Of a DNA stretch of 64,000 bases, positions 5,476-27,180 are shown one piece after another; positions within the stretch are counted from its first letter, which is position 1; each line of letters begins with the position of its first letter. The notes beneath the pieces were generated by a model that saw only the letters and a list, made by a program, of their open reading frames with translations, did no database searches and was not told the origin of the DNA. Position numbers and translations under genes: made by a program. Origin of the DNA: Candidatus Gastranaerophilales bacterium (GTDB taxonomy: Bacteria; Cyanobacteriota; Vampirovibrionia; Gastranaerophilales; Gastranaerophilaceae); NCBI GenBank assembly GCA_028693235.1, contig JAQUVW010000004.1, forward strand, positions 1-64,000. The letters are read 5' to 3'.

Positions 5476-5507
5476 TTCAGCATAACATATCTGGGCAGAA
5501 GTCATTA

Positions 5508-5530
5508 TTTTTATGATATAATCATAAAAA
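5508..5530. promoter_or_regulatory. Palindromic operator over the -10 box of the Mrr gene
   Basis: TTTTTATGAT, three bases, then ATCATAAAAA: a perfect inverted repeat with 10-base arms. It contains TATAAT and ends just before an AGGAG ribosome-binding site; the ATG follows at 5542. The overlap of palindrome and -10 box suggests a repressor or autoregulatory site. Confidence 0.5.
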
Positions 5531-5541
5531 AGGAGTACGGA

Positions 5542-6414: not shown

Positions 6415-6437
6415 CGAAGAGGATTAAATACAAACCA

Positions 6438-7088: not shown

Positions 7089-7174
7089 TTTTTCAATAAT
7101 CCGAATTGAATTGCAAAAACTGTTAAAGTTATATTTGATTCAAAAATAAGAATTCTAAAGTTTCACGAGTTCTT

Positions 7175-7369
7175 CTATTTTTTAGAATCATCATAATCCT
7201 CCAACGGCACAATATTATCAAGTTCGGTGTTGTACCGCTTCCCGTTTTTATCAACACAAGCAGCAAAATCGACAACGCCATCTGCAAATTTATTTTTCCA
7301 AATTTTGATTAATAATCCGATTTCTTTCGTTTTACTGTTAAAAATTTTTGTGCCGTAACATAAATCCAT
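7175..7369 (-). CDS. Small hypothetical protein
   Basis: 64 residues from the ATG at 7367-7369, which has AAAGGA about 9 bases upstream; a longer frame to 7426 lacks such a site. The product (begins MDLCYGTKIFNSKTKEIGLLI) looks like a small beta-rich fold with one short acidic tail. No family recognised. It is convergent with the Ymh gene and lies between it and the AlwI-like system. Confidence 0.5.
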   Translation of the reverse strand: MDLCYGTKIFNSKTKEIGLLIKIWKNKFADGVVDFAACVDKNGKRYNTELDNIVPLEDYDDSKK

Positions 7370-7577
7370 AGTAAAAATCCTTTCGTTTACAATCACATTA
7401 ATTGATTGCAAACGAAAGAAAATCAACTCTTTGTGTCAGAACAGAAACAAATGTCAGAAAGGGTTTTAAGCCAAGTTGCTATGCTAAAAGACAAACAATA
7501 CCTAACTTACTACAAAATGTAAAATTAAAACGAGTTAAAGAGGTTTTAAAACGATTCTGAAGACAGATTGTCATTAT

Positions 7578-9377
7578 TTATGCTACAAGCAAATTATTCA
7601 TTTCAATTTTCCAGTTATTTAATGCTTCTGGAATTTTTTCTAACCATGATTCTGAATTATTTTCTAAAGCAATATCTATAATTTTGTCATATAAAGTTCT
7701 AATATATGCGTGTTTAAATTCAATATTTGTTTGCCTAAATATCGCAACGGTTTTAAGTATTTCGATTAATTGTTTAATTGTAATAGGAATAATTTTTTGT
7801 TTTGCTCCGGCATATTCGTATTTAATACTTGTATAATAGGTGTTTATTGTATCAGTATGCAAAGATGGTGCAACAAATAAGCAATAACAATCTTTATCAG
7901 TGTGAATATTTTCAAATTCTCTTAAATGCCTCATTACAGGCTGTCCTTCATTAAACCACTGATCTCTACTTGCTAACATTGTTACTTCGCAAGTTGCATT
8001 AAAATCAGAATAAAAACATTCAATATCTGGTACTCCGGCAGGAGCTGTAAAAGTCGGTTCATTATCATCACCTACTATACTGTTCGGCTTTATCAATAAA
8101 GAATCATTGATAATATTTAATGCAACATTAACCCATTTTTCGAGTGCTATTGAAGGTTTTAAATCTAATTTTCTAATATTTAGTAAAGAATCAATTGTTT
8201 CATTGATTTTTAAAATATCATTGCTGTAATCAAACTTTATTTCTAAATTTTGCAATTTTACACGTTTTGCACGTAAATCAGCAATAGTTGATTTTATTTC
8301 TGTTTTTGTTGCAGGGCAAGATTGAACCGTTTTAGTAAAATTTAGTTTTTCTTCCAATTTGTTAATATCAGATAAAACTTCATTAAAAATTTCTTGTAAC
8401 TTTTCAACCGTATCAAACGGTAAATTATAAGTACCGTAAGTCGTAAAATATTTAATCCAATCTTCTTTTGAAAAATCTTTTGCTGCACCATTGTCATTTT
8501 CAATTATTGAATTTATTTCAACCATTCTTCTTGGTTCCAAATCCACACAAGCGTTTCCGTATTTACCTCTAATGTAGATATATTTCGTTATTCGCATATA
8601 TCGGATTACATTATCTGTATATTCTTTAGTATTTTTCTCTGGATTATTAAAAGTTGAAAGATATTGTGCTATATAACTTTTTCTATAAATTTCCTTTTCT
8701 GCATTTGATGGTAGCGTTTCATAGTGCTTTCTAAATTCAATTACTTTTAGGGCAATGTCATCAACATCAGAGTAATTTTTAATTGAAAGTGCAAAAATGC
8801 CAAATTCAATTTTTGTTAATCCCTTTTCCTTCATATTATTTTGTTGGCACAATTCATTAACTTTCTTAATTAATCTCAGAGCATTAATAAAAGGCTTTGA
8901 ATTCCAATCTCTACGCTCACTTTCAATTTGATTCGGATATTGTAATTTTAGTAGTGATTCAAACATAAACTCATCAAAAGTAATTTCTTCATTCAGAAGT
9001 TTATTACCAACATCTGTTATAATTATTTTTTCGGTGCTTCTATCAACTAAGCCTAATTTTTCAAGAGGGGACATTGACTGACGACCTCTCATAGGAGCAT
9101 CTTCATATTGTTTTGTTTCAAAAATTTCTTTAGCTTGTGCATATGTCATATTAATAGTTTTATCCTTTAATAAATTTATTTGTTCGGCATTTAATTTATT
9201 AAAGGTTTGTGTACTATCTGTATTTAGATATTCCCTGTTTTTAATTAACAAAGTTTGAAATTTTATTTGTGCCGCTTCGTCCCAAACATCATTCTCCATT
9301 TCTTTTGCAGTTTTTAAAAATGCGGGGATTCTTTCAGCCTCTCTAATTGTAGTTGTCATACTCCAAAGTGTATCCAA
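7578..9377 (-). CDS. AlwI-family type IIS restriction endonuclease
   Basis: 599 residues from a TTG at 9375-9377, chosen because AAGGAG stands about 8 bases upstream. The N-terminus (WSMTTTIREAERIPAFLK, then QIKFQTLLIKNREY) is the hallmark of the AlwI family, which also includes MlyI, PleI and the BspD6I/BstNBI enzymes. The acidic residues of the C-terminal half (PDIECFYSDFNATCEVTM, about 450-475) fit a PD-(D/E)xK core. AlwI cuts beside asymmetric GGATC. The target here is unknown but is likely asymmetric, given two methyltransferases. It is the last gene of a three-gene operon, 13 bases after a methyltransferase. Confidence 0.88.
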   Translation of the reverse strand: MDTLWSMTTTIREAERIPAFLKTAKEMENDVWDEAAQIKFQTLLIKNREYLNTDSTQTFNKLNAEQINLLKDKTINMTYAQAKEIFETKQYEDAPMRGRQSMSPLEKLGLVDRSTEKIIITDVGNKLLNEEITFDEFMFESLLKLQYPNQIESERRDWNSKPFINALRLIKKVNELCQQNNMKEKGLTKIEFGIFALSIKNYSDVDDIALKVIEFRKHYETLPSNAEKEIYRKSYIAQYLSTFNNPEKNTKEYTDNVIRYMRITKYIYIRGKYGNACVDLEPRRMVEINSIIENDNGAAKDFSKEDWIKYFTTYGTYNLPFDTVEKLQEIFNEVLSDINKLEEKLNFTKTVQSCPATKTEIKSTIADLRAKRVKLQNLEIKFDYSNDILKINETIDSLLNIRKLDLKPSIALEKWVNVALNIINDSLLIKPNSIVGDDNEPTFTAPAGVPDIECFYSDFNATCEVTMLASRDQWFNEGQPVMRHLREFENIHTDKDCYCLFVAPSLHTDTINTYYTSIKYEYAGAKQKIIPITIKQLIEILKTVAIFRQTNIEFKHAYIRTLYDKIIDIALENNSESWLEKIPEALNNWKIEMNNLLVA

Positions 9378-9390
9378 AATAAAATCTCCT

Positions 9391-10332
9391 TTAGTAATTA
9401 ATAATTAAAACTTCTTCCGTCACGGCTTCTTTGTTTTTTGTCTGATAATTTGAATTTTTATAGTCATAATTCAAATTAATAACTTTATATTTGTCAGAAT
9501 TTTTTTCTGCCCAATTTATTAGTATTGAATTTTCTTTGCCTTTACTTCTAAGCACATTTGATAATGCAAATTTTATATTTTTTTCATGTAACTTGTCCAA
9601 GAATATTAGCAAATCATTTTCATCGGTACTATTCCAACCGCCTTGTTCATTGTAGGTAGCACAAGTGATTAAATACGGAGGATCTGCATATACAAAACTA
9701 CTTTCATTTAGTTTTGAAATATCAAATTTTCTGAAATCCAAATTTGAAAATTCAAAGTTTTTACCCTCCAAACGTTCAATAAAATTTTTCAATTTCAAAC
9801 GCATTTTTTCGTTAAAATCACGCTTGCCGACAGGTAAATTAAATCTACCTTGAGAATTAAATCTTATTTGATTATTAAAAGAATAAATAATTAAGACGTA
9901 AAGCAAAGTATAATAGTAATAATCTATATTTTTAATTTTGTTAAAATCTTCACGCAACCTTAAAAATTTGTCTTTGTTATAAGGTGCTAAACCTGTATTG
10001 CTATTGCATTTATAATACTCATATCCGTATTTATCGCTTTGCGATAAACCGTATTTTTCAATAACTTCGTCAATCATATTAAGGAAATCATTACCCAGAT
10101 TTTTAAAAGTATTGAAAAGATAGGTTAAGTTATCGTCAGTATCATTAAATATTGTTCTGTTGCTCTGAACGTTTATTCCGACATTTCCGCCACCACAAAA
10201 CAAATCTACAAAAATATCAATATTTTTAGGAAATAACGGTAAAATCTGCGGAAGTAATTTGAATTTACCGCCGGTATAATTTAATGGAGATTGTATTATT
10301 TCTAAACTTTTTTCTTCGCACAACATTTGCAT
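9391..10332 (-). CDS. DNA adenine methyltransferase, D12/Dam class (second modification enzyme)
   Basis: 313 residues. Motif X is SPLNYTGGKFKLLPQI near residue 15. Motif I is FVDLFCGGGNVGIN near residue 41. The catalytic motif IV is DPPY (ADPPYLITC) near residue 218. This order marks a D12-class N6-adenine methyltransferase related to Dam. Its start overlaps the end of the preceding methyltransferase gene by 31 bases, so expression is coupled. With its neighbour it would protect the two different strands of a non-palindromic site from the AlwI-like nuclease. Confidence 0.9.
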   Translation of the reverse strand: MQMLCEEKSLEIIQSPLNYTGGKFKLLPQILPLFPKNIDIFVDLFCGGGNVGINVQSNRTIFNDTDDNLTYLFNTFKNLGNDFLNMIDEVIEKYGLSQSDKYGYEYYKCNSNTGLAPYNKDKFLRLREDFNKIKNIDYYYYTLLYVLIIYSFNNQIRFNSQGRFNLPVGKRDFNEKMRLKLKNFIERLEGKNFEFSNLDFRKFDISKLNESSFVYADPPYLITCATYNEQGGWNSTDENDLLIFLDKLHEKNIKFALSNVLRSKGKENSILINWAEKNSDKYKVINLNYDYKNSNYQTKNKEAVTEEVLIINY

Positions 10333-11438
10333 ACAAACAATCTCTCTGCATTTTCTTCAATTAAAGATTTACCTGTTGAAAATGCTTTATAACTTTTAGA
10401 AAACACTTTTACTTTACCTTTATTATTTAAAATGCGCAAAATTTCTTCATCAGGAAGTTTTGCATTTGACCTTTCGTTGCCCTTTTCTGCCATATTATTA
10501 TAAGAAAGAACAATGTATTTAGCATTAATATTGGTAATTAAATCTTCAAATGCTTTAACCGCACTTTGAGTGCAATAATCACTTTTCAAAGAAGTTCTAT
10601 CCATTTTTTTGGCAACGCCAATAACTTTGGGCTTTTCCCACTTCGCAACATTTTCTAATAAATGATACGCATCGCAATATTGTCTTGAATTATATGGAGG
10701 GTCAAGATAAACCACATCAGCACTTACAACTTTCACAAGGTTATTAATATCTTCATTGTATATTTCATTATGAAAATTTGTATTTTCTATATTTGGAACG
10801 GCTAATTCTAATTTTTTATCTAATTCCCCATTTTTACGATAAGCATCATAATGTCCACAAGTATTAGCAATTTTGTCCATGGCATACAGTAAAGATGTTA
10901 TAAGAATACACTTTTCACGATTATTCAAATTGTCAGATTTAAAATTTTTCTCAATATCTTCTCTTATAAACCCGATTTTTTTACAATTTTTTTTGCTAAA
11001 ATATGTATCAGCATAGTTTTTTGACATATAATTATCGGCAGTAACCGAAATTTGATTATATCTATTTATGAAATTAATAATTTTATCTTTTGAATAATAT
11101 TCATATCCAAACCAAGTTTGATGGCAAACATAATTGCTGTAAAGAATATCATTTACAATTAAATGCTTTTCTTGAAACATTGAAGCAACTGCTCCTGTAC
11201 CTGCAAATAAATCTGCAAACGTTTGAAATTCGCCACATTCTTTATTTATTATACTTTTTATAAATTGGTTTAATTTATATTTATTGCCAAGATAACGGCG
11301 ATTATTAATAGAAAAAGTTGCATATTTTTTATCGTCAATAATTGAACTATGAACCAATTTCAAATTCGTTTCTGAAAATTTAGGTTTATCTTCATTTGTT
11401 CTTGTATTCTTATGTTTGAGCAATTCTTGTACAGACAA
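10302..11438 (-). CDS. DNA adenine methyltransferase, D12 class (first modification enzyme)
   Basis: 378 residues from TTG (11436-11438), with AGGAGG about 10 bases upstream. Motif X is RRYLGNKYKLNQFI, motif I is FADLFAGTGAVAS, and motif IV is YLDPPYNSRQYCDAYHLLE. The latter two closely recall the methyltransferases of FokI-like type IIS systems. It is the promoter-proximal gene, so the modification genes are transcribed before the nuclease, a common safeguard for a newly acquired system. Divergent from the PHP-ATPase gene, with a shared 14-mer in the intergenic region. Confidence 0.9.
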   Translation of the reverse strand: MSVQELLKHKNTRTNEDKPKFSETNLKLVHSSIIDDKKYATFSINNRRYLGNKYKLNQFIKSIINKECGEFQTFADLFAGTGAVASMFQEKHLIVNDILYSNYVCHQTWFGYEYYSKDKIINFINRYNQISVTADNYMSKNYADTYFSKKNCKKIGFIREDIEKNFKSDNLNNREKCILITSLLYAMDKIANTCGHYDAYRKNGELDKKLELAVPNIENTNFHNEIYNEDINNLVKVVSADVVYLDPPYNSRQYCDAYHLLENVAKWEKPKVIGVAKKMDRTSLKSDYCTQSAVKAFEDLITNINAKYIVLSYNNMAEKGNERSNAKLPDEEILRILNNKGKVKVFSKSYKAFSTGKSLIEENAERLFVCKCCAKKKV

Positions 11439-11462
11439 AAGTTACAACCCTCCTATTGTGAT

Positions 11463-11476
11463 ATTGTAATACAAAC
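11463..11476 (-). promoter_or_regulatory. Promoter-like 14-mer for the restriction-modification operon
   Basis: Minus strand GTTTGTATTACAAT, ending in a -10-like TACAAT, 24 bases before the TTG start. It is an exact inverted copy of the element at 11554-11567, which serves the divergent gene. A common regulator is possible. Confidence 0.5.
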
Positions 11477-11553
11477 AAGAATTTTAGGCATTTTGTTTCG
11501 GGTTGTTAAGAATAAATATTTAAATACCCATGTGTCTAATATCCAATAGGTGT

Positions 11554-11567
11554 GTTTGTATTACAAT
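11554..11567 (+). promoter_or_regulatory. Promoter-like 14-mer for the PHP-ATPase operon
   Basis: GTTTGTATTACAAT on the plus strand, identical to the element at 11463-11476 in inverted orientation, 18 bases before the ATG at 11586. An AAAGGGGAAG ribosome-binding stretch follows. Confidence 0.5.
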
Positions 11568-11585
11568 AAAAAAAGGGGAAGAAAA

Positions 11586-14357
11586 ATGAATAATGTTTTT
11601 GAAAGAGGCTCAGAATGGAGAAGATGGGATTTACATCTGCATACACCAGGAACACTTAAAAATGATCAATTTGATGGAAGTAGCCTTGATGAAAAGTGGG
11701 AGAAATTTTATCAAGATATTGATTCATATATTGGAGATTCTGCAAATTCTTTAAAAAATATAGCCGTGGTTGGAATTACTGACTATTTATCAATTGATAA
11801 TTATAAAAAAATAGTTGCCGAAAATAGATTACCAGATTCAATTAAGCTTATTCTTCCAAATATAGAAATGCGATTGCAACCAATTTCTGGAGATTCTCCA
11901 ATAAATATACATTTTATTTTCAATCCTAAAATTATAGATCAACTAGAAAGTAGATTTTTCTCTAAATTAAAATTTCCATATGATAATACTAATTTTAATG
12001 CTTCTAAAGTAGATTTAACAAGATTAGGAAAAACTTTTGATAACACTTTAGATGAGCAAAATGCATATAAAAAAGGCATAGAAATGTTTGTCGTTTCTTT
12101 TGATTCTATAAAAAATATTTTCGATGAAGATATGGATCTAAGGGAAAATGTAGTAATTGGAGTATCAAATAGTTCCTGTGATGGTGCCAGTGGAATCGTT
12201 AATCATTCAGATTATATGATAGGCAAATCTTCACAATTGATAGCTGTCAGACAAGCAATTTATAAATTTGTCGATATAATCTTTTCAGCAACACCTAGTG
12301 ATATAAATTATTTTTTAGGTAAAAAAGAAACATGTTCAATAGAAAAAGTTATCAAAGAATGTGGTTCTTTAAAACCATGCTTGCATGGCTCAGATGCCCA
12401 CACAAATACAAAAATATTCGAGCCTGATGAACAGCGGTATTGTTGGGTAAAGTCAGATCCCACCTTCAATGGTTTAAAACAGATAAAATATGAGCCAGAA
12501 GAGAGAGTTCGAATATGTTCTTCCAAACCAGAGACAAAGTCAGATTATTTTGTAATTGATAGGGTTGAATATAATGATTCCAATTTCCAAACAGAGCCAA
12601 TATATTTTAACGATAAACTAACTTGTATCATTGGAGGGAAATCTACTGGTAAATCAATTTTAATTCAGAACTTAGCGATGGCAATTGACAAAAATGAAGC
12701 TGAAAAATGTCTTGAAAAATCAAAAAATAAAACATTGCAGGTAAATAATATAAAAGTTTTTTGGGCAGATAAAACGGAAGAAAATCGCAAAATAATTTAT
12801 ATTCCACAAACATATTTGAACAAATTAACTGATGAGCAACAAGAAAAAACAGAGATTGATAGTTGGATTCAAAATATAATTCTAAATAAGCCGGAAATAG
12901 GAGCTGCACATGAAACATTTTTATTAAGAATTAAAGAATATAAAGGTAATTTAGAAAAAAATATACTTGATTTGTTCTCAAAACACGAAGAATATATAAA
13001 TTTAAAAGAGCAAATAGATAACCTTGGAACTAAAACTGGAATAGAGAAAGAAATAAAAAAATTAGAAGCAGAGAAAAATTTACAATCAAAAGATGTGGAG
13101 TTTTATTCTGAGGATGCAACTCTTTATGAAGAAAGTTTATCAAAACTTGATAGTAAAAAACAAGAAAAAGAAAATTTATTATACACAAAAAATAAAATTT
13201 CAAATATAGAAAATCTAATTGAAGTAAAACAATTAGATTTTAATATTTCAAATGAATTCATAAATACAATAATTGAAAAACAAAAAGAAATTGTTGATAA
13301 TGCTAAAGCTCTTTGGACAGAACAAAAAAAATCTACACTTACAATTATTGAAAAATCTTTGGAGTGTATTGAGAAAGAAATAAATGACCATGAATCACTA
13401 ATAAAAAAGTTAGAAGAAAAAATTAAAACTAATAATGCTGTATTAGAATGTGCAAGAAAAATTCAATTGGAGAAAACAAAACTAAGTGAGTATTTAAAGA
13501 AAGAAGAAATTCTTGCTCTAAATAAAAAGGGTATGGATGATTTTTTATCTAAACTTATTGAATCTATAGATTTTTATAAATTAGAGCACCAAACATTTGC
13601 AAGTTTAGTAAATAAAGATAAAATTGTAGATGATGGATTGGAATTTTATGTTGAAAATCCTTTCCGCAAAGATACTTTTACTGAAAAACTTCTTGCCATT
13701 TTCAAAAATAATAATGCAAAATTTAAAAGTTTAATTGATATAGAAAATTTTGATGAAACTAGTTATACAAAAGACAAAATTAAAAGCTTAATAAAAGAAA
13801 TTATTGAAAATCCTTCTGTTTTAAAAGCTGATTATACTCCAGAGTCAGCTTTAAGAGAAATTTTAAGTGATTGGTATAATACTGTATATAGAGTAAAAAT
13901 GGATAATGACTCGATAGATAAAATGTCTCCTGGGAAAAAGGCTTTAGTGCTATTAAAAATTTTAATAAGTTTAGCCGAAACCCAGTGTCCAATTTTAATT
14001 GATCAGCCAGAAGATGATTTAGATAATCGTTCAATATATGATGATTTAGTTAATTATATAAAAAAGAAAAAGAAAGAACGCCAAATTATTATAGTAACTC
14101 ATAATGCTAATCTTGTTTTAGGTTGTGATGCTGATGAAATCATTATTGCAAATCAAGATGGAATCACGTCACCAAATAAAAAATATAAATTCGAGTACAG
14201 AAGCGGTTCAATTGAAAACCATTTACCTTTATACGATGCCAAGGGAAATATTGAATCTGGAATTTTAAATAAACAGGGAATTCAACAGCATATATGCGAT
14301 ATTCTTGAAGGTGGTGAAATAGCATTTGAAAAGAGAAAAAATAAATATAATATTTAA
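11586..14357 (+). CDS. PHP domain plus SMC-like ATPase (TrlF/Ppl-like)
   Basis: 923 residues from the ATG at 11586, placed after AAAGGGGAAG; an upstream ATG at 11550 overlaps the promoter element. The PHP metallo-phosphoesterase domain fills about residues 10-300 (RRWDLHLHTPG, VVGITDY, HGSDAH). Walker A is GGKSTGKS at about 350-357. A long coiled coil spans about 440-660. Walker B is ILIDQPEDDLDN near 803-814 and the switch is VTHNANL. This is the architecture named TrlF in protein databases and resembles the PHP-ATPase defence protein called Ppl. PHP domains often cleave phosphodiesters, so nucleic-acid cleavage gated by ATP is a fair guess. The next gene follows after 2 bases. Confidence 0.85.
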   Translation: MNNVFERGSEWRRWDLHLHTPGTLKNDQFDGSSLDEKWEKFYQDIDSYIGDSANSLKNIAVVGITDYLSIDNYKKIVAENRLPDSIKLILPNIEMRLQPISGDSPINIHFIFNPKIIDQLESRFFSKLKFPYDNTNFNASKVDLTRLGKTFDNTLDEQNAYKKGIEMFVVSFDSIKNIFDEDMDLRENVVIGVSNSSCDGASGIVNHSDYMIGKSSQLIAVRQAIYKFVDIIFSATPSDINYFLGKKETCSIEKVIKECGSLKPCLHGSDAHTNTKIFEPDEQRYCWVKSDPTFNGLKQIKYEPEERVRICSSKPETKSDYFVIDRVEYNDSNFQTEPIYFNDKLTCIIGGKSTGKSILIQNLAMAIDKNEAEKCLEKSKNKTLQVNNIKVFWADKTEENRKIIYIPQTYLNKLTDEQQEKTEIDSWIQNIILNKPEIGAAHETFLLRIKEYKGNLEKNILDLFSKHEEYINLKEQIDNLGTKTGIEKEIKKLEAEKNLQSKDVEFYSEDATLYEESLSKLDSKKQEKENLLYTKNKISNIENLIEVKQLDFNISNEFINTIIEKQKEIVDNAKALWTEQKKSTLTIIEKSLECIEKEINDHESLIKKLEEKIKTNNAVLECARKIQLEKTKLSEYLKKEEILALNKKGMDDFLSKLIESIDFYKLEHQTFASLVNKDKIVDDGLEFYVENPFRKDTFTEKLLAIFKNNNAKFKSLIDIENFDETSYTKDKIKSLIKEIIENPSVLKADYTPESALREILSDWYNTVYRVKMDNDSIDKMSPGKKALVLLKILISLAETQCPILIDQPEDDLDNRSIYDDLVNYIKKKKKERQIIIVTHNANLVLGCDADEIIIANQDGITSPNKKYKFEYRSGSIENHLPLYDAKGNIESGILNKQGIQQHICDILEGGEIAFEKRKNKYNI

Positions 14358-15704: not shown

Positions 15705-15751
15705 TTGGGCCCGGCAGGATTCGAACCTGCGACCAAAGGATTATGAGTCCT
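15705..15751 (-). repeat. attL: 47-bp direct repeat, tRNA 3'-end remnant
   Basis: Identical to 27043-27089. It holds the acceptor 3' strand, T-arm, variable region and part of the anticodon arm of the tRNA, but no D-arm or 5' acceptor strand follows, so it is a non-functional remnant left by integration. Confidence 0.92.
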
Positions 15752-15927: not shown

Positions 15928-17037
15928 ATGGCAGAAATTAAAAAAAGACGGCGCAAAAATGGCGACTTTAGCTATACTGCAAGTATAAGAATTAAAGGTT
16001 GTCCAATTATGACTGCAACGTTTTCTCGATTAACTGATGCAAAAGAATGGATTTCTGAGAATGAATTGCCATTAAAACGTGGAAAGCATATTAAAAATTC
16101 AAACGCACAAAAGCATACAGCAGGTGAATTAATTGATAGATATATTGAATATGAACTAAAAAATCGCAAATCCGACAAAGATAAATACAAAATGCATCTT
16201 GCTTGGTGGAAAAAACAAATCGGAGCATATTTATTATCAAGTATTGATAATATCATGCTTTCAGAATATAGGGATAAGTTGTCAAAAGAAAAATGTTTAA
16301 TTCCTCGAAAAAATATGTCACCAAAAATTAGTGATAAAACTCGTTCAAATTCTACTGTAAATCGTTACATGGCTTCACTCTCTACGGTTTTAAGTTTAGC
16401 GGTAAAAGAATATGGCTGGCTTGACGAAAACCCAATGTTAAAAGTGATAAAGAAAAAAGAACCCAGAGGTCGTGTTAAATATTTAACTGATAAAGAAGTT
16501 GAAAAGCTTTTGTCTGCATGCCTGCAACAATCAAATGAATTATATTTATGTATTTTGATTGCACTTTCTACCGGTGCAAGATATAGCGAAATAACTAATT
16601 TGTCGTGGAAAGATGTAGATATGGAACACAAGCAATTCCATTTTCTAAATACAAAAAATGGCGATGATAGAGGTGTGGCTATAACTTCTAATGTATATGC
16701 CGAATTGTTAAAGTTTCAAAAAATACGCAACATTAATTCAGATTTATTATTTGCGACAAAAGACGGCAGAAAAACCTTGTATATTCGGGGGCAATTTGAA
16801 AATGCTCTAAAAACAGCAAAAATAAAAGATTTTCATTTTCACGATTTGCGCCATACTGCTGCAAGTTATTTAGCAAAAGGCGGAGCAAGTTTACTTGAAA
16901 TAGCGACAATTTTAGGACATAAAACACTTGCTATGGTTCAGCGCTATTCGCATTTAACCAAAGGACATACGGCAGAAGTTTTAGAGAATATGAATATTCA
17001 AATGTTTAAAAATGTACATATTGGAAGGGAGGCATAG
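15928..17037 (+). CDS. int: Tyrosine recombinase / phage integrase
   Basis: 369 residues from the ATG at 15928, preceded by AAAGG; an earlier ATT/TTG frame to 15841 has no ribosome-binding site. The N-terminal arm-binding region is followed by a SAM-like core-binding domain and the catalytic domain. Catalytic residues visible: Arg in STGARYSEI, His-x-x-Arg in FHDLRHTAAS, His in LGHKTLAMV and the Tyr nucleophile in QRYSHLT. Full length for a temperate-phage or island integrase. It would recombine the element with the 3' end of the adjacent tRNA-Met gene. The putative arm sites overlap its promoter region, which allows autoregulation. Confidence 0.95.
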   Translation: MAEIKKRRRKNGDFSYTASIRIKGCPIMTATFSRLTDAKEWISENELPLKRGKHIKNSNAQKHTAGELIDRYIEYELKNRKSDKDKYKMHLAWWKKQIGAYLLSSIDNIMLSEYRDKLSKEKCLIPRKNMSPKISDKTRSNSTVNRYMASLSTVLSLAVKEYGWLDENPMLKVIKKKEPRGRVKYLTDKEVEKLLSACLQQSNELYLCILIALSTGARYSEITNLSWKDVDMEHKQFHFLNTKNGDDRGVAITSNVYAELLKFQKIRNINSDLLFATKDGRKTLYIRGQFENALKTAKIKDFHFHDLRHTAASYLAKGGASLLEIATILGHKTLAMVQRYSHLTKGHTAEVLENMNIQMFKNVHIGREA

Positions 17038-17559
17038 ATGAATGAGTTGCAGACGACTACAATAATTCAAAACAGGATTTTTATAATTCGAGGTCAAAAG
17101 GTTATGATAGACCGTGATTTAGCTGAATTATACAAAGTTAAGACGATGGTATTAAACCAGGCCGTTAAAAGAAATTTAAAAAGGTTTCCCGATGATTTTA
17201 TGTTTAAGCTTACTCCTGAAGAACTAAAGGAACTTATCACAAATTGTGATAGGTTCGAAAAGTTAAAACATTCGCCGACTACACCACATGCGTTTACAGA
17301 ACAGGGTGTTGCTATGCTTTCAACAGTGTTAAATAGCGAAACTGCTATTGAGATAAATATACAAATAATGCGTGTGTTTGCAAAAATGAGACAATGGGCA
17401 ATCGAAAACAAGGAAATGGCTCTGCGCCTACAAGAATTGGAACATTATTTCATACAACATTGTAAAGATAATCAAGCTGATATGCAGAAAATATATGATG
17501 CACTCGGTTTACTTATGGATCGAACCAAACCGACACAAATTGGCTATAAAACCGATTAA
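17038..17559 (+). CDS. ORF6N domain phage protein
   Basis: 173 residues, starting directly after the integrase stop codon. Residues 8-95 match the ORF6N domain (IFIIRGQKVMIDRDLAELYKVKTMVLNQAVKRN, FPDDFMFKLT, FTEQGVAMLSTVL). The rest is a helical tail (RVFAKMRQWAIENKEMALRLQELE) likely to oligomerise. ORF6N proteins of phages and islands are DNA-binding and often act as antirepressors or regulators. Co-transcription with the integrase is likely. Confidence 0.85.
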   Translation: MNELQTTTIIQNRIFIIRGQKVMIDRDLAELYKVKTMVLNQAVKRNLKRFPDDFMFKLTPEELKELITNCDRFEKLKHSPTTPHAFTEQGVAMLSTVLNSETAIEINIQIMRVFAKMRQWAIENKEMALRLQELEHYFIQHCKDNQADMQKIYDALGLLMDRTKPTQIGYKTD

Positions 17560-19372: not shown

Positions 19373-19609
19373 ATGACAAATTTAGCAATTACTGAAAACA
19401 AAAACTTAATCCCAGAACTTATTCCGGTTAGTAAGTGGAATGAATACTTTCCATATCCATCGGTGGCTTCAATTAGACAATATATATTTTATAAGCGCCG
19501 TAACGGATTTGACAAGGTTTTGCGATGGATGGGCAAACGACAATATATTTGCGTTGCAGCGTTTAACGAATGGGTGGAAAATGGCACCGGTGAGAAAGCT
19601 GCGTGTTAG
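19373..19609 (+). CDS. Small helix-turn-helix / excisionase-like protein
   Basis: 78 residues after an AGGAGG site. The core VSKWNEYFPYPSVASIRQYIFYKRRNGFDKVLRWMGKRQYI has the pattern of small phage DNA-binding proteins: a helix-turn-helix that chooses a partner, then a wing with an aromatic DNA-facing strand. It may serve as excisionase or as a regulator. The next operon follows a palindrome at 19629-19649. Confidence 0.55.
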   Translation: MTNLAITENKNLIPELIPVSKWNEYFPYPSVASIRQYIFYKRRNGFDKVLRWMGKRQYICVAAFNEWVENGTGEKAAC

Positions 19610-19730: not shown

Positions 19731-20492
19731 ATGGATATAAAAGAAAAAGATCCTGCATTTTTGTTTTACAGTAGTGATTTTTTAACAGGTTGCGCCGGAC
19801 TTACTATGGAAGAACGTGGACAGTATATCACAATGATGTGTTTACAGCACCAACAAGGACATCTGTCCGATAAAACCATAAGGTTATCTGTAGGAAACTT
19901 GTCGGATGATATTTTATCTAAATTTTTAAAAGATAAAAATGGGCATTTTTATAACAAAAGGCTCGATGATGTTATAGAAAAAAGAAAAGCATTTACTGAA
20001 AGTCGTAGAGAAAACGGAAAAAAAGGGGGGCGTCCTAAAAAGAACGATGAAAAAGCAAGTGCGAAACCTAGTGCAAACCTACTTGGAAATGGAAATGAAA
20101 ATGAAACTATAACTGAAGATAAAATTGAAGCTTTTAAAAAGTTATATAATGAGACATGTTCAAATTTACCTGAAGTAACAGAGATTACAGAAACAAGATT
20201 AAATAAAATTATACAAAGGTTAAAAGAAAAAGATAACCTTGAATATTGGAAAAAAGTTTTTGAAAAAGCAAATAGGTCTGATTTCTTTATAAAAAAGAGT
20301 TGGTGTAGTTTTGATTGGTTTATCGAAAATGATACTAATTATGTAAGAGTTTATGAGGGAACATTTGTAAATATGCCCGATGTAAGATTGGGTTCCTGTT
20401 CAACATTTAGAAAAGAAGCTAACAGAAACCCTAATAAATACTCTTGTGATAATCTTGAACATTTGCAAGAGAAAGGAATGGCGATACTATAA
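19731..20492 (+). CDS. DUF1376-type phage replication protein
   Basis: 253 residues. The N-terminus (DPAFLFYSSDFLTGCAGLTMEERGQYITMMCLQHQQGHLS) matches DUF1376, found in phage replication regions. It is followed by a basic KKGGRPKK linker and a C-terminal domain (WKKVFEKANRSDFFIKKSWCSFDWFIEN), typical of replisome-organiser or primosome proteins. A TATAAA stands just upstream; no strong ribosome-binding site is visible apart from GGGGGT. It overlaps the next gene by one base. Likely role: origin binding or helicase loading for the element's own replication. Confidence 0.75.
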   Translation: MDIKEKDPAFLFYSSDFLTGCAGLTMEERGQYITMMCLQHQQGHLSDKTIRLSVGNLSDDILSKFLKDKNGHFYNKRLDDVIEKRKAFTESRRENGKKGGRPKKNDEKASAKPSANLLGNGNENETITEDKIEAFKKLYNETCSNLPEVTEITETRLNKIIQRLKEKDNLEYWKKVFEKANRSDFFIKKSWCSFDWFIENDTNYVRVYEGTFVNMPDVRLGSCSTFRKEANRNPNKYSCDNLEHLQEKGMAIL

Positions 20493-20830
20493 TGCATAAA
20501 CAAAATAGTTTAAATAAAATTAGAGCCTTTATTATTCCATCAAATATTAAAAATGATAATAGATTATCTTATGGCGCAAGGCTTTTATATGGCGATATAT
20601 ATGAGCAATCAAGAGAAAATGGCTATACGACAGTCACAAATAAAGAATTTGCGCAAATTTATAATGTGGCTCCTAAAACAATTGGTGTTTGGATTAGTCA
20701 ACTTAAAAAATATGGTTATATCGATACTCAGTTTGAATATACAACGATAATAACTGAAGATTGGTGTAGTGAATTTTATACAAAAAATAAAAAATTTCCA
20801 TTGGTAAAAATACCGATTTCATACTACTAA
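20492..20830 (+). CDS. HTH_36-type winged-helix protein, replication-associated
   Basis: 112 residues, start overlapping the stop of the DUF1376 gene (TAATG). FIIPSNIKNDNRLSYGARLLYGDIYEQSRENGYTTVTNKEFAQIYNVAPKTIGVWISQLKKYGYI is the helix-turn-helix domain common at the N-terminus of phage replication initiators. The short tail has no further domain. It is probably the DNA-binding partner of the preceding protein. Confidence 0.72.
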   Translation: MHKQNSLNKIRAFIIPSNIKNDNRLSYGARLLYGDIYEQSRENGYTTVTNKEFAQIYNVAPKTIGVWISQLKKYGYIDTQFEYTTIITEDWCSEFYTKNKKFPLVKIPISYY

Positions 20831-20854: not shown

Positions 20855-21199
20855 ATGACAGTAGAAAAATTAGAATTACAAGAACCAATTGTGATTAATG
20901 GCGCAGAGTTAAAAGTTATTGATTATGACATTTCAAAAATTGGTGTTGCAGAAATAGGCAAAGCCGAAATTGAAAAAAGTAAAATTTTTGGCAGAGCTGC
21001 AATTACAAATTTAAAAGTCGCACAAGCGGATTATTTATTGCACTGTTTATTAGGAATGCAAGCAATTATTGCTTGTAATCCTAATATAGATATGGAAGAT
21101 TTAAAACGGATAAAAGGTTATGATATGGTGCAAGTTGCCGCAATAGGAACTCGTTTTTTCGTTGCACCCACAAAGAATGAACAAATAGTTAGGGGGTAA
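20855..21199 (+). CDS. Phage tail-assembly chaperone (E/gp41-like)
   Basis: 114 residues after a GGGAGG site. The pattern QEPIVINGAELKVIDYDISK, then ADYLLHCLLGMQAI and MEDLKRIKGYDMVQVAAIG, fits the tail-assembly chaperone group that includes phage P2 E and Mu gp41. It lies directly before the tape-measure gene, the position such chaperones hold in tailed phages. It would bind the tape measure until the tail tube polymerises. It is one of very few structural genes in this element. Confidence 0.65.
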   Translation: MTVEKLELQEPIVINGAELKVIDYDISKIGVAEIGKAEIEKSKIFGRAAITNLKVAQADYLLHCLLGMQAIIACNPNIDMEDLKRIKGYDMVQVAAIGTRFFVAPTKNEQIVRG

Positions 21200-21201
21200 A
21201 A

Positions 21202-23048
21202 ATGAATGACAAAGTTATGAAAGCAGTTGTTGAACTCGCAGGAACAGTAGATCCGTCATTAGCAAAAAGCATAAGCAACGCAGAAAAAGCTCTCGGAGGT
21301 ATTGATTTAAAAGCCATAGCTACAGGTGCAGCGTTTACCACCGCAGCACTACTTGCAGTAAAAGCTTTTGCTAGTACATCAAAGGGGTTATTTGATTTAG
21401 GCGAAAAGTTTCAATTAGAATTGGAACCGGAGCAACAGGTACTGAATTAGAGAATCTAAAAGATACAATGAACGATGTTTATACTTCAGTTCCGGTATCG
21501 ATGGAAAACGCAGGCAAAGCAATTTCAGATTATAATACAAGACTTGGTTTGACAGGTTCTCAATTATCAGGTTTATCGGAGCAAGCTTTAGCAGTTAGTG
21601 AAATGTTGGGTGAAGATTTGAATACCACAATAGAAGCATCTTCTCAAGCTTTTCAACAATGGGGGATTAGTAATCAAGATATGGGCAAATCTATGGATTA
21701 TATTTTTAAAGTCCAACAAGCTACTGGTATCGGTTTTAATGCTTTAATGTCAAATTTAAAAGACTATGGTCCTCAACTTCAAGCTTTAGGATTTTCTTTT
21801 GAACAGTCTGCAGCGATGATGGGGCAAATGGAAAAAGCAGGTGTTAGAACCGATGAAATAATGGCAGCATTAAAAAAATCTGTTGGAACAATGGCAAAAG
21901 AAGGATTGTCGGCTTCTGAAGGTATAAAAAAATATTACAACGAAATTAAAAATGCGGGCGATATTGCAAAAGCCACCGCAATAGCGAATGAAGTATTTGG
22001 CGCAAGAGCTGGTTCAAGTGTTGCGGATGCAATTAGAAAAGGTACAATTTCAGCAGATGATTTTGCAAATTCAATGTCAAAAAATAATGAAAAAATAATG
22101 AGTGTATTTCAAGAAACAATGGATTTCCCTCAAAAACTTAAACTTGTATGGCACGAACTTGATACTCATTTAGAACCATTGGGTGGTGCGATATTTGATA
22201 ATATGGGTGATTTAATTGAACCATTAAAAGAAGCTTTTGCACCAGTTTTGCCGTTAATAGATAAGTTCGTAGAACTTACAGAACCAATTACAAATGAATT
22301 GTTTTCTAAATTAGCTGATTTTATTAGTAGTTGTGCACCGATGTTTGAGGAGTTTTTCAAAAACATAGAGCCCTTATTGGATGCTTTAATACCTATTATT
22401 CAGCTATTGGCAGGATTAATTGGAGGTGTTTTAGGACAAGCCTTTTTAATAATAATGCCTATTGTCAACGATTTTATTGGTTTACTTACAAATGCGATTG
22501 ATTTTATTGTAAATGTATTTACATTGCAGTGGGGTGATGCGTGGAAAAATGTTGTGGCAGTATTCAGTAGCACATTTGGATTAATTGATGAATTAGCAAA
22601 AGGTCCAATTAATGCCGTTATTGCGATAATCAACTCTGTTGTTTCTGGGATTAATGCTTTGCACATTCAAATACCTGATTGGGTTCCAGGTATGGGAGGA
22701 AATGAATTCGGTGTTAAAATTCCGCACATACCTATGCTTGCAGCAGGTGGATTTACAGACGGAGTAAGTATTGCCGGCGAAGATGGAACAGAAGCCGTAA
22801 TCTCATTTAACCCATCATATAGAGATAAAAATTTATCAATATGGAAAGATGCAGGCGCCATGCTTGGTGCAACAACATCAAATAGTGTTGTAATAGATAT
22901 GGGAGGAATAAATTTTGCGCCAAATATTAATGTTACCAATAGTTCAAACTCCGAAGATATTATGCAACGATTAAAAGAACATGAATCAGAGTTTATGGAT
23001 ATGATTGAACATTCATTAAAACAAAGAACTTTGAAGCGCTATTGTTAA
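21202..23048 (+). pseudogene. Tail tape-measure protein, TP901 type, frameshifted
   Basis: Two frames make one gene. 21202-21450 gives the N-terminus (VELAGTVDPSLAKSISNAEKAL). The frame one base back is open from 21396 to 23048 and gives the TP901 core (IRIGTGATGTELENLKD, then VPVSMENAGKAISDYNTRLGLTG). A -1 shift near 21408-21411 (AAG TTT) joins them into about 615 residues. The body has hydrophobic segments (LLAGLIGGVLGQAFLIIMPIV) and ends with a typical region (AAGGFTDGVSIAGEDGTEAVI). Short for a tape measure. The shift is either decay, a sequencing slip or unusual recoding. Confidence 0.78.
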
Positions 23049-23100
23049 TTATTAAGCGAGCGAGCAATGCGAGTGAGCGCATGGTATAAAAAGATATTTA

Positions 23101-23252
23101 CTCGCACCACGTTGCCCGACAAGGCATGAATAAACTCAATTGGGATATGACTGCATAGAGATAAATAAAATTGGGATACAGGGGCACACATACATTGGAT
23201 AAAATCTCAATAGGTACTTCTGGCAGATTTTATCTCTGTGGTGCTTGCGAGC
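23101..23252 (+). ncRNA. Candidate structured RNA between tape measure and small terminase
   Basis: The 276 bases 23049-23324 hold no gene and are richer in G and C than the surroundings. GCACCAC (23104-23110) pairs with GTGGTGC (23238-23244), extended by CTC/GAG after a four-base bulge. Inside lies a hairpin with 10-base arms (GATAAAATCT 23198-23207, AGATTTTATC 23225-23234). An alternative pairing (AGAGATAAA 23157-23165 with TTTATCTCT 23229-23237) competes. Strand is assumed from the flanking genes. No known RNA family was recognised. Confidence 0.35.
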
Positions 23253-23324
23253 CCAGAAAAGGTATAGTTTTGAGAAAAAAAATTTTAGGCCACTTCCTTC
23301 CGCAGAAAATTTAAGGAGTAAAAT

Positions 23325-23846: not shown

Positions 23847-24617
23847 TTAGATTTCATGCTGTGTAAATTGTTCAGCCAATAATTCTGCATCCATAAGTAT
23901 TTTTATTTTATTTATATTGTATCCGTATATTTCGTTTTTATCTACATTACCTCCTAAAACAATGGCAACTACTTCGCCATTTTCGTTTATAATCGGGGCT
24001 CCACTACAACCTTGATATACTTCGTGCCCACGGTGTCCATCCAAAGGTGTAAATATATATATATCATTATCATTTTCATTAGTTTTTTTATATTTAACGA
24101 TTTCGCAAGTCTCAATTCTTTGAAAAATGTAGTGAGGAATTGGCGGCGCCACTATTTGCCCTCTAGTTCCCCCCGCAAAGGAATATTCTTCATTAATAAT
24201 AGGTACATTTGGCGAAATATTTAATATATTATTTTCTACTTCATTTTTTATTTTTGCAGGAAACTTGGAAGCATCTATATCTTGAACATAAGCTTTGTAT
24301 TCCTCTTCAAATTTATCGGTAATATTTTTAAAAGCAACATCTATATGTTTTGGTTCTTTGGGTTCTTCTTTTGAAAATATATTGACTGATATTGCATATG
24401 ATAATTCTTGCAATGGCTTTAATAAAGTTCCGGCAGTAGTATCATATTTCCTTTCAAGATAACTGATTTCATTAGGTTCCGAAACATGTTTGGCCGTTAC
24501 TAAATATATATTATTATTGTTTCTAACAAAACAGCCACTTCCTGAACTTGTTAGTTCATCATTATTATTTTTAGTAATTATTGATAGATAACTAAGTTTA
24601 ATAGTATAGTAATCCAT
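23847..24617 (-). CDS. Trypsin-like serine protease
   Basis: 256 residues with no signal peptide or membrane segment, so probably cytoplasmic. The chymotrypsin-fold triad is visible: His44 in LVTAKHV, Asp93 in HIDVAF and Ser205 in QGCSGAPI, the last followed by a typical GEVVAIVLGG strand pair. It is the third gene of an operon behind a Ymh protein and a Ser/Thr kinase, 31 bases after the kinase. Intracellular trypsin-like proteases are used as effectors in several anti-phage systems. Here the kinase may trigger or target it; that is inference. Confidence 0.82.
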   Translation of the reverse strand: MDYYTIKLSYLSIITKNNNDELTSSGSGCFVRNNNNIYLVTAKHVSEPNEISYLERKYDTTAGTLLKPLQELSYAISVNIFSKEEPKEPKHIDVAFKNITDKFEEEYKAYVQDIDASKFPAKIKNEVENNILNISPNVPIINEEYSFAGGTRGQIVAPPIPHYIFQRIETCEIVKYKKTNENDNDIYIFTPLDGHRGHEVYQGCSGAPIINENGEVVAIVLGGNVDKNEIYGYNINKIKILMDAELLAEQFTQHEI

Positions 24618-24648
24618 AAATTTATCCTTTCACTTTAAAATATAATGA

Positions 24649-26187
24649 TTAACTATTATATTGAATTAAAAAATTTAATAATAAATTTTTATCAAGTTCC
24701 GCAACCTGTGTATTATAAATATGCAATGCATGTATATTGTCAATTTCTGTAATTAAGTCTAAAAAATCAAAGGCAAAAGGTTCAGGAGTTCTTCTCTGAG
24801 TTGATAATCCACTGTTTGTGTTCGTCAAAGTGTACCAAGAACCATATATGTCAGATTCATTCTCTTTTGCAAGTATTAAATTATATCCAGCGCCGGAAGA
24901 ATGGTTTATATACCCCCAAGCTTGTATCACTTTATTGTCTAATTTTGGAGTAAAATTTACTTGTTTTGTTGCTCTTTGACCAGAATGCCAATTTGTATAA
25001 TATTCCTTTTTGTGACATTTCTCAGGCAATACGGTTTGTACTTCAATTCGCAATTCCTTGCGAGATGAGGTTTTAATTGCATAACAAAAATTTTCTGAAG
25101 AAAAAGGTTCTTTGTTAAAGATTATTTGATTACCATCAATATATTGCTGATTATAAGTATTAATAAATTCTTTAATTGGATTTATTATCGACTCTTTCAA
25201 TTGATATTCGACAAGATTATTTATTTCTGTTATTTCTTCTTGTCTCTGCTTTTTCTTTAATTCTTCGGCTTTCAACGTATTGTCTTGCTGAACTTTTACT
25301 CTTAATGCAAAATCTACCATTGAAGAAACTGAATTATTAGCGGTTGCTGTTTTAACCTTTGACAAGTCAGTTATTATATCTGACCAGTTTGCATATCTTT
25401 TGCTAGTATTTTTTTCAAGCATTTTTAATATTACTTGAGACATCGCAAGTGATAATTGTTCATTTATACTTTGAGGGTTTTTTGCTTGTTGATATAGGTG
25501 CATTGATTTGTAATCTTTGTTATCAGGTATGTCATAAGGATACTTCAGTGTTGCTAATTGGAAAAATACTATACCCATTGAATATATATCTATTTGGATT
25601 GTGTTTTTTTGCATTCCCCATGCTTCAGGTGCAAAATATAGCTCAGAGCCATAACCTTTAAATGTTTTTGTCCTTGTTGATTCATCAGCAAATTTTGATA
25701 AACCAAAGTCCGAAATTTTAAACAGTTCTTTATCAATTAATATGTTTTGAGGTTTTATATCTCGATGTACTAATTTTGAATTTATTTCTTTCATTCCTGA
25801 TATCAGTTGTGAAAAAATATCAGAAAGTCGTTGATTTTCAATATAATCGGATTGTTCCTTTATAAACTGGTCTAAAGTTCCGTTATTTGCATATTCCATT
25901 ATGATATACGGAGGCAAATCTTTATAGGTTTGTCCGTCATGAAAATACCAATATTTAATGATGTGGGTATGATTTATTTTAATTGCACTTTTTGCTTCTT
26001 GAATAAATGAATTTAAGGTTGCTTCATTAGGATATTCCGTAGGTAAAGTTTTTAATGCAAATATAGCATTTGTTTTTACATCTTTTATTTTAAACACATT
26101 GCCAAATCCACCACTCCCGATTGACTCGATAACAATATATTCATTTCTATTGTCGTCATAGATTATAGATCCGATTGTAATAATCAT
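24649..26187 (-). CDS. Hanks-type Ser/Thr protein kinase with unknown C-terminal domain
   Basis: 512 residues. Kinase domain at about 15-285: glycine loop GSGGFGNVF (24-32), Lys46 (FALKTL), HRDIKPQN (141-148), DFG (160-162) and APE (FAPEAWG). All catalytic residues are present, so it should be active. A coiled stretch (about 300-325) leads to a C-terminal domain of about 190 residues with no known match (WGYINHSSGAGYNLILAKENES). There is no transmembrane helix, unlike PknB-type envelope kinases. It starts 2 bases after the Ymh gene stop, so the two are coupled. Confidence 0.85.
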   Translation of the reverse strand: MIITIGSIIYDDNRNEYIVIESIGSGGFGNVFKIKDVKTNAIFALKTLPTEYPNEATLNSFIQEAKSAIKINHTHIIKYWYFHDGQTYKDLPPYIIMEYANNGTLDQFIKEQSDYIENQRLSDIFSQLISGMKEINSKLVHRDIKPQNILIDKELFKISDFGLSKFADESTRTKTFKGYGSELYFAPEAWGMQKNTIQIDIYSMGIVFFQLATLKYPYDIPDNKDYKSMHLYQQAKNPQSINEQLSLAMSQVILKMLEKNTSKRYANWSDIITDLSKVKTATANNSVSSMVDFALRVKVQQDNTLKAEELKKKQRQEEITEINNLVEYQLKESIINPIKEFINTYNQQYIDGNQIIFNKEPFSSENFCYAIKTSSRKELRIEVQTVLPEKCHKKEYYTNWHSGQRATKQVNFTPKLDNKVIQAWGYINHSSGAGYNLILAKENESDIYGSWYTLTNTNSGLSTQRRTPEPFAFDFLDLITEIDNIHALHIYNTQVAELDKNLLLNFLIQYNS

Positions 26188-26189
26188 AT

Positions 26190-26894
26190 TTACCCCAATT
26201 CTCGTTTTGAATAATCACCGTCCAATATTCTTAATAAATAATTTGCAAAATATAGAAGTTCAACAGCTTTTTCTTGTTTAATAGTTATCCTATTATGTGC
26301 CTTTGGGTTTCTGATAAAACCTATTGCACCTGCAAACAAATCAGATTGAGCTTGTCGTTCGGCTTCTGGTAATGTAGTATTTATTAATCCCCCGGAATCT
26401 TTATTAAAGGCTTTTCGCATTAAGGCTACACCATTTAAATTGATAAGGTTACTTTTATCTCTAACCTTGACCTCAACATATTTAAAAGCCTCAAATACAG
26501 CCTCCGAATAATGAGTATCTTTAAATAATGATTTTACATTATCAGGCAAATATCCCCAATTCTCATCATTTACGGAAATAATGTCTTCAATAGTTTCATA
26601 TATTGCATTGAGATTGCAAAGTTGGGCTTTTGTTACATCGTAATTTGTACTAAAACGAATAAATTCGCAAAAAGAAGCAGCGTAATTATTTCTATCTAAA
26701 AATAAACGAACTTTTTCATACCAAGTATTAAATAAAGTTTCATCGACAAATGTTTGTATTATTTCATTGTGAGTTTCTTTTTGGTGTAACCATTCATTAG
26801 CTTTAACTGTAATTCCGACATCTTTTTGATAAGCACTTTTTAAAACTGCTTCCCCTTCTGAAATTAATTTTTTAAGCTTTTCTTTTATACCCAA
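26190..26894 (-). CDS. TIGR02391/Hypoth_Ymh family protein, first gene of kinase-protease operon
   Basis: 234 residues from a TTG at 26892-26894, with AAGG about 8 bases upstream. The C-terminal half carries the Ymh signature: HYSEAVFEAFKYVEVKVRD, GVALMRKAF, LFAGAIGFIRNPKAHNR, LLYFANYLLRILDG. Arg195 and His200 (RNPKAH) have R-x4-H spacing as in HEPN ribonucleases. Whether Ymh proteins are true HEPN enzymes is not settled here. A paralogue with Lys in the Arg position stands beside mrr at 6438-7088. Its promoter region overlaps the putative right arm sites of the element. Confidence 0.8.
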   Translation of the reverse strand: MGIKEKLKKLISEGEAVLKSAYQKDVGITVKANEWLHQKETHNEIIQTFVDETLFNTWYEKVRLFLDRNNYAASFCEFIRFSTNYDVTKAQLCNLNAIYETIEDIISVNDENWGYLPDNVKSLFKDTHYSEAVFEAFKYVEVKVRDKSNLINLNGVALMRKAFNKDSGGLINTTLPEAERQAQSDLFAGAIGFIRNPKAHNRITIKQEKAVELLYFANYLLRILDGDYSKRELG

Positions 26895-27042: not shown

Positions 27043-27089
27043 TTGGGCCCGGCAGGATTCGAACCTGCGACCAAAGGATTATGAGTCCT
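27043..27089 (-). repeat. attR: 47-bp direct repeat inside the tRNA gene
   Basis: Identical to 15705-15751. It restores the 3' part of the tRNA from the T-arm through the anticodon arm, so integration leaves the tRNA functional. The boundary falls at the start of the anticodon stem, usual for tyrosine-integrase islands. Confidence 0.92.
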
Positions 27090-27115
27090 CTGCGCTACCG
27101 CTGCGCCACAAGCCC
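27044..27115 (-). tRNA. tRNA-Met (CAT anticodon), elongator or Ile2 type
   Basis: 72 bases without encoded CCA. Acceptor GGGCTTG pairs with CGGGCCC (with two G-T pairs); D-stem GCGC/GCGC; anticodon stem GAGGA/TCCTT around CTCATAA, so anticodon CAT; T-stem GCAGG/CCTGC with loop TTCGAAT; discriminator A. The anticodon stem lacks the three G-C pairs of an initiator, so it is elongator Met, or Ile2 if lysidine-modified. Sequence alone does not separate these. Its 3' half is the integration site of the element to the left. Confidence 0.92.
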
Positions 27116-27180
27116 ATCACTATTTATTATGTTATTAAAATAACATCTAAATATCTTATGGTCAAGTAGTTTAATAGATA

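Follow-up and report, generated by a model that had tools for sequence, protein, structure and literature searches.

A probable lambda-type cos site in a satellite-like island of a Gastranaerophilales bacterium

In a 64,000-nucleotide stretch of DNA from a Gastranaerophilales bacterium (hereafter the window), the right half of one intergenic gap (about 23207-23307) is very probably a lambda-type cos site, carried by what is most likely a helper-dependent satellite integrated in a tRNA-Met gene. A cos site acts like an address label on DNA, marking the place where the packaging motor of a phage cuts it and loads it. The motif shows that some small tRNA-borne islands of the Gastranaerophilales carry a phage packaging signal, and provides a searchable cos signature for a group of gut phages.

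Conserved packaging blocks ahead of terS

The gap (276 bases, 23049-23324) lies, as the original prediction had it, between a tape-measure frame ending at 23048 and a terS frame whose ATG stands at 23325. Its right half presents cosQ-like, cosN-like and cosB-like blocks in this order, directly followed by the Nu1-like terS (Table 1). The name cosQ rests on block order and spacing as set out in excerpts of PMC9026076 (the other cited papers are likewise drawn on in excerpt), and the A/T tract, in the place of lambda I2, would have a role in cos. An alignment of 18 related sites contains 20 invariant columns.

Table 1. Features of the island and of the gap between the tape measure gene and terS (window coordinates; a dot means no strand).
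Feature	Coordinates	Strand	Remarks
attL, 47-bp copy of the tRNA-Met end	15705..15751	.	exact repeat of 27043-27089
Tyrosine integrase	15931..17037	+	PF00589 7e-33 (longer frame from 15841); 78% identity to the integrase of L098/G074
ORF6N/anti-repressor-like protein	17038..17559	+	PF10543 3e-32, phrog_4792
Small conserved island (marker) protein	19373..19609	+	matches in 56/383 family genomes
Two replication-initiation-like frames	19731-20492, 20492-20830	+	phrog_19658 and others
TAC-like frame (tail assembly chaperone, TAC, by position)	20855..21199	+	44% identity to L011 4451-4780
Tape measure gene (TMP), two frames (82 + 526 aa)	21202..23048	+	frameshifted; phrog_991 9e-41 (526-aa frame)
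Left part of the gap, unexplained	23049..23206	.	few matches among related loci
cosQ-like block AGGTACT	23212..23218	+	A-G-G-T and the sixth-place C invariant in 18/18 aligned sites
cosN-like block TGTGGTGCTTGCGAGCCCA	23237..23255	+	13 of the 20 invariant columns of the 18-site alignment
A/T tract TTTTGAGAAAAAAAATTTT, between cosN and R3	23268..23286	+	varied forms in the alignment rows
R3-like putative TerS site CACTTCCTTCCGC (cosB, single R as in N15)	23291..23303	+	
Small-terminase-like gene (TerS), 170 aa	23325..23837	+	winged HTH, Arg28 in the recognition helix; phrog_57 2e-20
Cargo: trypsin-like, Ser/Thr kinase (PD-T4-6-like) and Hypoth_Ymh proteins	23847..26894	-	
attR, within tRNA-Met (27043-27116, - strand)	27043..27089	.	

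The shared motif was first spotted by eye among the blastn matches of the right half in 383 genomes of the family, which precede TerS homologues in G212 and G254 but not in G074 or G192. The G192 copy (L099, 16471-16569) sits in a prophage-like stretch, close to its right-hand end, not directly before terS and some 26 kb away from the terS and terL of the same contig. No close phage relative was found by DNA, and a search with back-translated TerS recovered no TerS relatives in viral contigs; it was replaced by DNA pattern scans, with which the viral relatives were gathered. Two exact pattern scans of IMG/VR returned 16 stretches (nine of which, all of one GC-rich sequence type lacking terS, were put down to chance) and 18 stretches (L052 taken as chance), giving 23 distinct cos-like contigs, several near-identical. 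A TerS-like frame follows the cos in 21 of these 23 (the exceptions being L051, and L061, where the contig ends) and a GpA-like TerL frame was recognised by eye in 16, while the GpA ATPase and nuclease domains were confirmed in both TerL proteins tested. In a third scan, which allowed 15-45 bases between GCGAGCCCA (cosN) and the R3 form TTTCGTTWCG, the distance was 35 or 36 in 87 of 91 sites, a regularity in keeping with lambda, where the distance from cosN to R3 is critical (PMC9026076, PMC4669245).

We use 'lambda-type' in the sense of architecture (order and spacing) and terminase family, since the bases identical to lambda cos number 26 or 24 of 98 for the two nick positions, no more than background (window-wide mean 23.5, maximum 44). 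Counting from 23240, the R3 of the window begins at bp 52 (bp 51/52 over the two nick positions), comparable to lambda (R3 at bp 50-65) and N15 (bp 48-60), and terS starts at about bp 85/86 (bp 89 in N15); block order and placement before a Nu1-like terS also resemble the simple cos of N15 (cosQ-cosN-R3, then terS; PMC9026076). The top strand is predicted to be nicked at 23240/23241 (or 23239/23240) and the bottom strand at 23251/23252, positions at which the window copy would be cleaved; the dyad symmetry of cosN was left out of this prediction because two centres compete and the symmetry is thus ambiguous.

Evidence on the nature of the site comes from the ends of phage genomes. The TerL of the G254 type has matches in 789 phage records, from which we inspected the record ends of six phages, picked for having terL close to the start of the record, together with those of lambda. 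The homologous cosN block holds the record ends of Shimadzu, Lagaffe, nd4, Lily and Lelie: the Shimadzu record (end GTGCTTGCGAG, start GTGCTTGCGAGCCC) has an 11-base terminal redundancy within it, the breaks of the nd4, Lagaffe and Lily records lie there too, and the Lelie and Pioen records are broken at more diverged blocks. Two whole metagenomic contigs (L212, L280) have the Shimadzu start base as their first base, and their ends and those of Shimadzu suggest an overhang of 11 rather than 12 bases. Packaged genome ends at cosN are hence seen at homologous sites (five phage records, two contigs) rather than at the window copy itself.

Shimadzu (a Roseburia phage), Lagaffe, Lelie, nd4 and Lily share with the window the layout of conserved blocks, while their TerL proteins are 63-64% (Shimadzu, Lagaffe, nd4), 42% (Lelie) and 40% (Lily) identical to that of the G254 type. 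Unlike the island, all five are whole phage genomes with TerL, and Shimadzu, Lagaffe and nd4 have TTTCGTTWCG as their R3, unlike the island. That the motif marks the start of headful (pac) packaging instead of a cos is very unlikely: Pioen was called headful by PhageTerm (PMC11792537), but 12-base 5' cohesive ends are described for the Paenibacillus phage Lily (PMC6070908), a cos upstream of termS was mapped by PhageTerm in the Faecalibacterium phage Lagaffe (PMC5883640) and 5' cohesive ends were predicted by the same tool in the Faecalibacterium phage Lelie (PMC11792537), to which the terminal redundancy of Shimadzu inside the cosN block may be added.

Structure and folding of the gap

The gap had originally been read as a possible structured RNA, with a packaging (cos/pac) site among the options because it stands just before the small terminase. 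What had been observed is real in part; the structured-RNA interpretation fails, and the packaging option is backed by the conserved, evenly spaced motif ahead of lambda-type terminase genes and by the sequenced phage genomes that begin and end at its homologues. The base composition of the gap is indeed distinct (G+C 0.39, against 0.35 in the tape-measure frame, 0.28 in terS and 0.31 in the whole island). Its internal hairpin (23198-23207 with 23225-23234) forms 10 of 10 pairs, a length reached in only 3 of 300 dinucleotide shuffles (it is longer than in the other 297), and the competing helix was recovered as a 12-nt inverted repeat (23154-23165 with 23229-23240, 92%). A structured RNA or leader switch controlling terS would draw on these two elements, but we consider it scarcely credible: the folding energy of the plus strand (-58.5 kcal/mol) hardly differs from that of its shuffles (mean -58.2; z -0.07), the minus strand gives z -0.89, no Rfam family matches within the gap, and in 10 related sites inspected the longest inverted repeat measures 4-7 bp. 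None of the five predicted pairs shows a compensatory change across the 18 related sites, whereas the conservation that had been named beside covariation is present, as that of a DNA motif. In G074, moreover, the conserved blocks adjoin att without a terS downstream.

The proposed closing helix stands in part, as CTCGCACCAC (23101) is able to pair with GTGGTGCTTGCGAG (23238), but four bases must bulge; its 3' arm is the cosN block, conserved as DNA, and its partner at 23101 was not found among the related loci compared. The same CTCGCACCAC (23101-23110) is the reverse complement of a shortened cosN, and could be what is left of another cos in inverted orientation, or a coincidence. The near-repeats GCGAGCGAGC are present and have no explanation. 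A blastn-short search of the left half of the gap against related loci gave one 20-bp match and two weaker ones, none convincing. Promoters and terminators were rejected as an account of the gap (promoter-like sites numbered 3, where shuffles gave 4.4, and there was no terminator-like site).

The island, its relatives and its candidate helpers

The gap belongs to an 11.4-kb island in the tRNA-Met gene, which is delimited by exact 47-bp direct att repeats, encodes an integrase and replication frames, and has no large terminase. The host of the island is a gut relative of cyanobacteria, and our literature searches returned no paper joining 'Gastranaerophilales' with 'phage satellite'. The marker protein has no Pfam or PHROG match (the label 'AlpA-like' reflects position and size only), nor has the TAC-like frame a PHROG match; the counterpart of the latter in L011 (4451-4780) is the gene that precedes TMP in a myophage contig, and the tape measure frameshift was established by comparing the frames with L011 by eye.

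The cargo, possibly defence genes, lies directly beyond cos-terS; a defence hotspot near cos is described for P4-like satellites (PMC11364771). To the left of the island (2042-14357), the ORF list shows, by eye, transposase-like and ATPase, restriction-modification-like and PHP/ATPase-like frames, along with a second Ymh-like frame.

We reason that the island cos is most likely the packaging signal of a helper-dependent satellite. P4 is a satellite that carries a helper-type cos in this way. The island would excise and replicate, a helper phage, of a type found as prophages in related genomes, would supply TerL, heads and tails, and the helper terminase would cut at the island cos and package island concatemers. 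SaPIbov5-type cos islands likewise are satellites with a helper-type cos (PMC8569155).

Relatives of the island and of its possible helpers were sought in the 383 family genomes. In G074 (Ca. Gastranaerophilus phascolarctosicola) a 6.2-kb island occupies tRNA-Met between 45-bp repeats; it carries replication-like genes, an integrase that shares 78% identity with that of the window, and the same small marker protein. Its cos sits between the last island gene and att, and nothing in the island matches TerS, TerL, TAC or TMP. G030 holds a similar island (integrase 55% identical to that of the window), but a search around it gave no att repeat. With R1, a model of the cos built on sequence alone, 20 of the 383 genomes matched at E <= 0.01 and 8 at E < 1e-8; six of these eight best genomes had gone into the model, and G030 and G146 were new. 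The GpA terminase (PF05876) is present in G192, G212, G185 and G254, with no match in G000, G074, G030 or G146 (four genomes that include that of the window; G146 is 88% complete), so the genome of the window holds no helper of such a type. TMP relatives at E <= 1e-30 occur in 4 of the 383 genomes, namely that of the window, G212, G254 and, as a fragment, G270; the G212 and G254 prophages have the same kind of cos as the window, plus TerL.

The cos is not general for such islands: over 28 further loci, of which 27 surround the marker protein (some as contig pieces) and one is a prophage stretch, no R1 match went below E 1.2. A looser cos pattern was likewise absent from these 28 loci (L145-L172), and TerS, TMP and TAC had no match in the 27 marker-protein loci. 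Islands with cos are a minority among those with the marker protein, or the others use other signals.

It is a less favoured, though by no means negligible, explanation that the island is an ordinary prophage remnant, which lost most of its genes and kept tail genes, part of terS and cos, the last as a fossil. The frameshifted TMP and the shortened TerS are what it predicts, and they mean that the island may be decaying; strong TMP relatives reside, besides, in the G212 and G254 prophages with the same cos kind and TerL (and in the G270 fragment). Against it speak the identical att repeats and the open integrase frame, and the G074 island, which shares the tRNA kind, the integrase and the marker protein and has a cos while lacking any match to TerS, TerL, TAC or TMP. 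Nor would we expect the order TAC-TMP-cos-TerS to arise by a single deletion from a prophage arranged int-rep-cos-terS-...-TMP. We retain the helper-dependent satellite as the preferred reading.

Among the viral contigs, L051 (6588-10732; IMGVR_UViG_3300017658_000175) has its cos near integrase frames, followed by a 1036-aa tape measure gene whose best phage matches are nd4 and Shimadzu; no TerS or TerL was recognised among the frames of this 14.5 kb stretch.

The small terminase and its recognition site

The nearest relatives of the TerS in the window are phage TerS proteins (54% identity to L035, 50% to L050), and compared with its relatives it stops short of a C-terminal tail: 88 of 89 related frames (66 of 67 distinct) extend at least 12 model positions beyond it, the exception (L228) being cut by the locus end (a cruder regex test gave 84/89). 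By analogy with lambda, where removing the last 30 residues of TerS leaves it with poor TerL binding (PMC9026076), the tail of the relatives would be the part that binds TerL. The structure model of the window protein (pLDDT 89) places Arg28 in the second helix, where the relatives have Gln. The best VIA match is lambda TerS (6hn7_B, Z 7.8 over 69 residues), and RppC (6hlk) gives Z 5.3 over 56 residues; a Z under 8 may reflect a common arrangement, and MerR-like chains score similarly. Searched by profile, the solved structures yielded the TerS chain 6hn7_B at E 0.21 and, up to E 10, no Rpp chain; Foldseek returned no match at E <= 0.001.

The putative R3 has diverged as well: the window has CACTTCCTTCCGC in place of the usual TTTCGTTWCG, and TTCGTTTCG is found in the nearest TerS relatives (L035, L050, L259). 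We surveyed helix residue and R3 in 116 sites, 96 with TerS (near-copies included) and 20 without, 14 of the latter looking like chance pattern matches; the other six are cos-like and either lie close to the end of a contig or locus or are accompanied by other genes. Among the 96 rows, those with R3 TTTCGTTWCG have Gln in 86 cases (two unread), and those with another R3 have Arg in six (L063 and L064 copies) and Gln in two (L043, L059); in the two scans that gave most sites the R3 letters were fixed beforehand and the TerS letters were not. In a quick tree of 65 TerS proteins the window groups with the Gln/TTTCG phages (99 SH-aLRT), and the changes from Gln to Arg and in R3 therefore seem to have occurred on its own branch. 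All four independent contrasts between helix residue and R3 agree (sign test p 0.125; four pairs cannot reach below 0.05). This tie offers a handle on packaging specificity. The window row has a long branch and an odd composition in the tree, which also fit decay.

A close parallel is found in the enteric PICIs (EcCICFT073 and its kin, with cos-rpp), which are integrated islands with an integrase and a replication gene as in the window, and which have a phage-like cosQ/cosN, an R3 of their own and a short winged-HTH gene right after cos (PMC6092414, PMC6739421, PMC9026076). Integrase, replication module and att repeats are all present in the window island. As to an alpA/merR/stl-type master regulator, the marker protein lacks Pfam and PHROG matches, and an ORF6N anti-repressor-like protein is present. 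Unlike the enteric PICIs it also carries a TAC-like frame and a broken TMP (20855-23048), and its host lineage is the Gastranaerophilales; because of these tail genes we did not file it as a PICI, although it may work like one. The protein itself is, as in Rpp, a TerS-like winged HTH next to cos without a C-terminal tail (Rpp proteins fall short of the length of TerS by 30-40 residues; PMC9026076), and its R3 is unlike those of L035, L050 and L259, which are its nearest TerS relatives and not an identified helper. Unlike enteric Rpp, it is plainly a TerS (50-54% to the phage proteins L050 and L035).

By this analogy the tail-less TerS, with its changed recognition helix and R3, might draw a helper terminase to the island cos in an Rpp-like manner, a proposal to which we give somewhat less than even weight; alternatively, it would be a decaying leftover. 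Slightly more tentative is the broader proposal of a redirector in the making, which (having lost its tail, and having exchanged Gln for Arg along with R3) would bind only the satellite cos and reach TerL through the helper TerS. If true, enteric bacteria would not be alone in having an Rpp-like system, and this one would clearly derive from TerS; the adjoining TAC-TMP (with TMP beside cos in L051 too) would mean that cos satellites also take over tail assembly. Should the tail-less TerS work as proposed, it would bear on the origin of Rpp proteins, a question raised in PMC6739421, whose authors hold it more likely that Rpp evolved from TerS; with the window protein, still clearly a TerS, this question would become testable.

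Arrangements around cos vary further among the related loci. In L043 (4645-5900) the cos is followed by an unrelated small frame with TerS pieces beyond it, and terS seems interrupted. Upstream of more distant TerS genes in the same family (L008, L009) we observed other cos-like layouts (GGTACTTCC ... TTTCGTTTTTCG).
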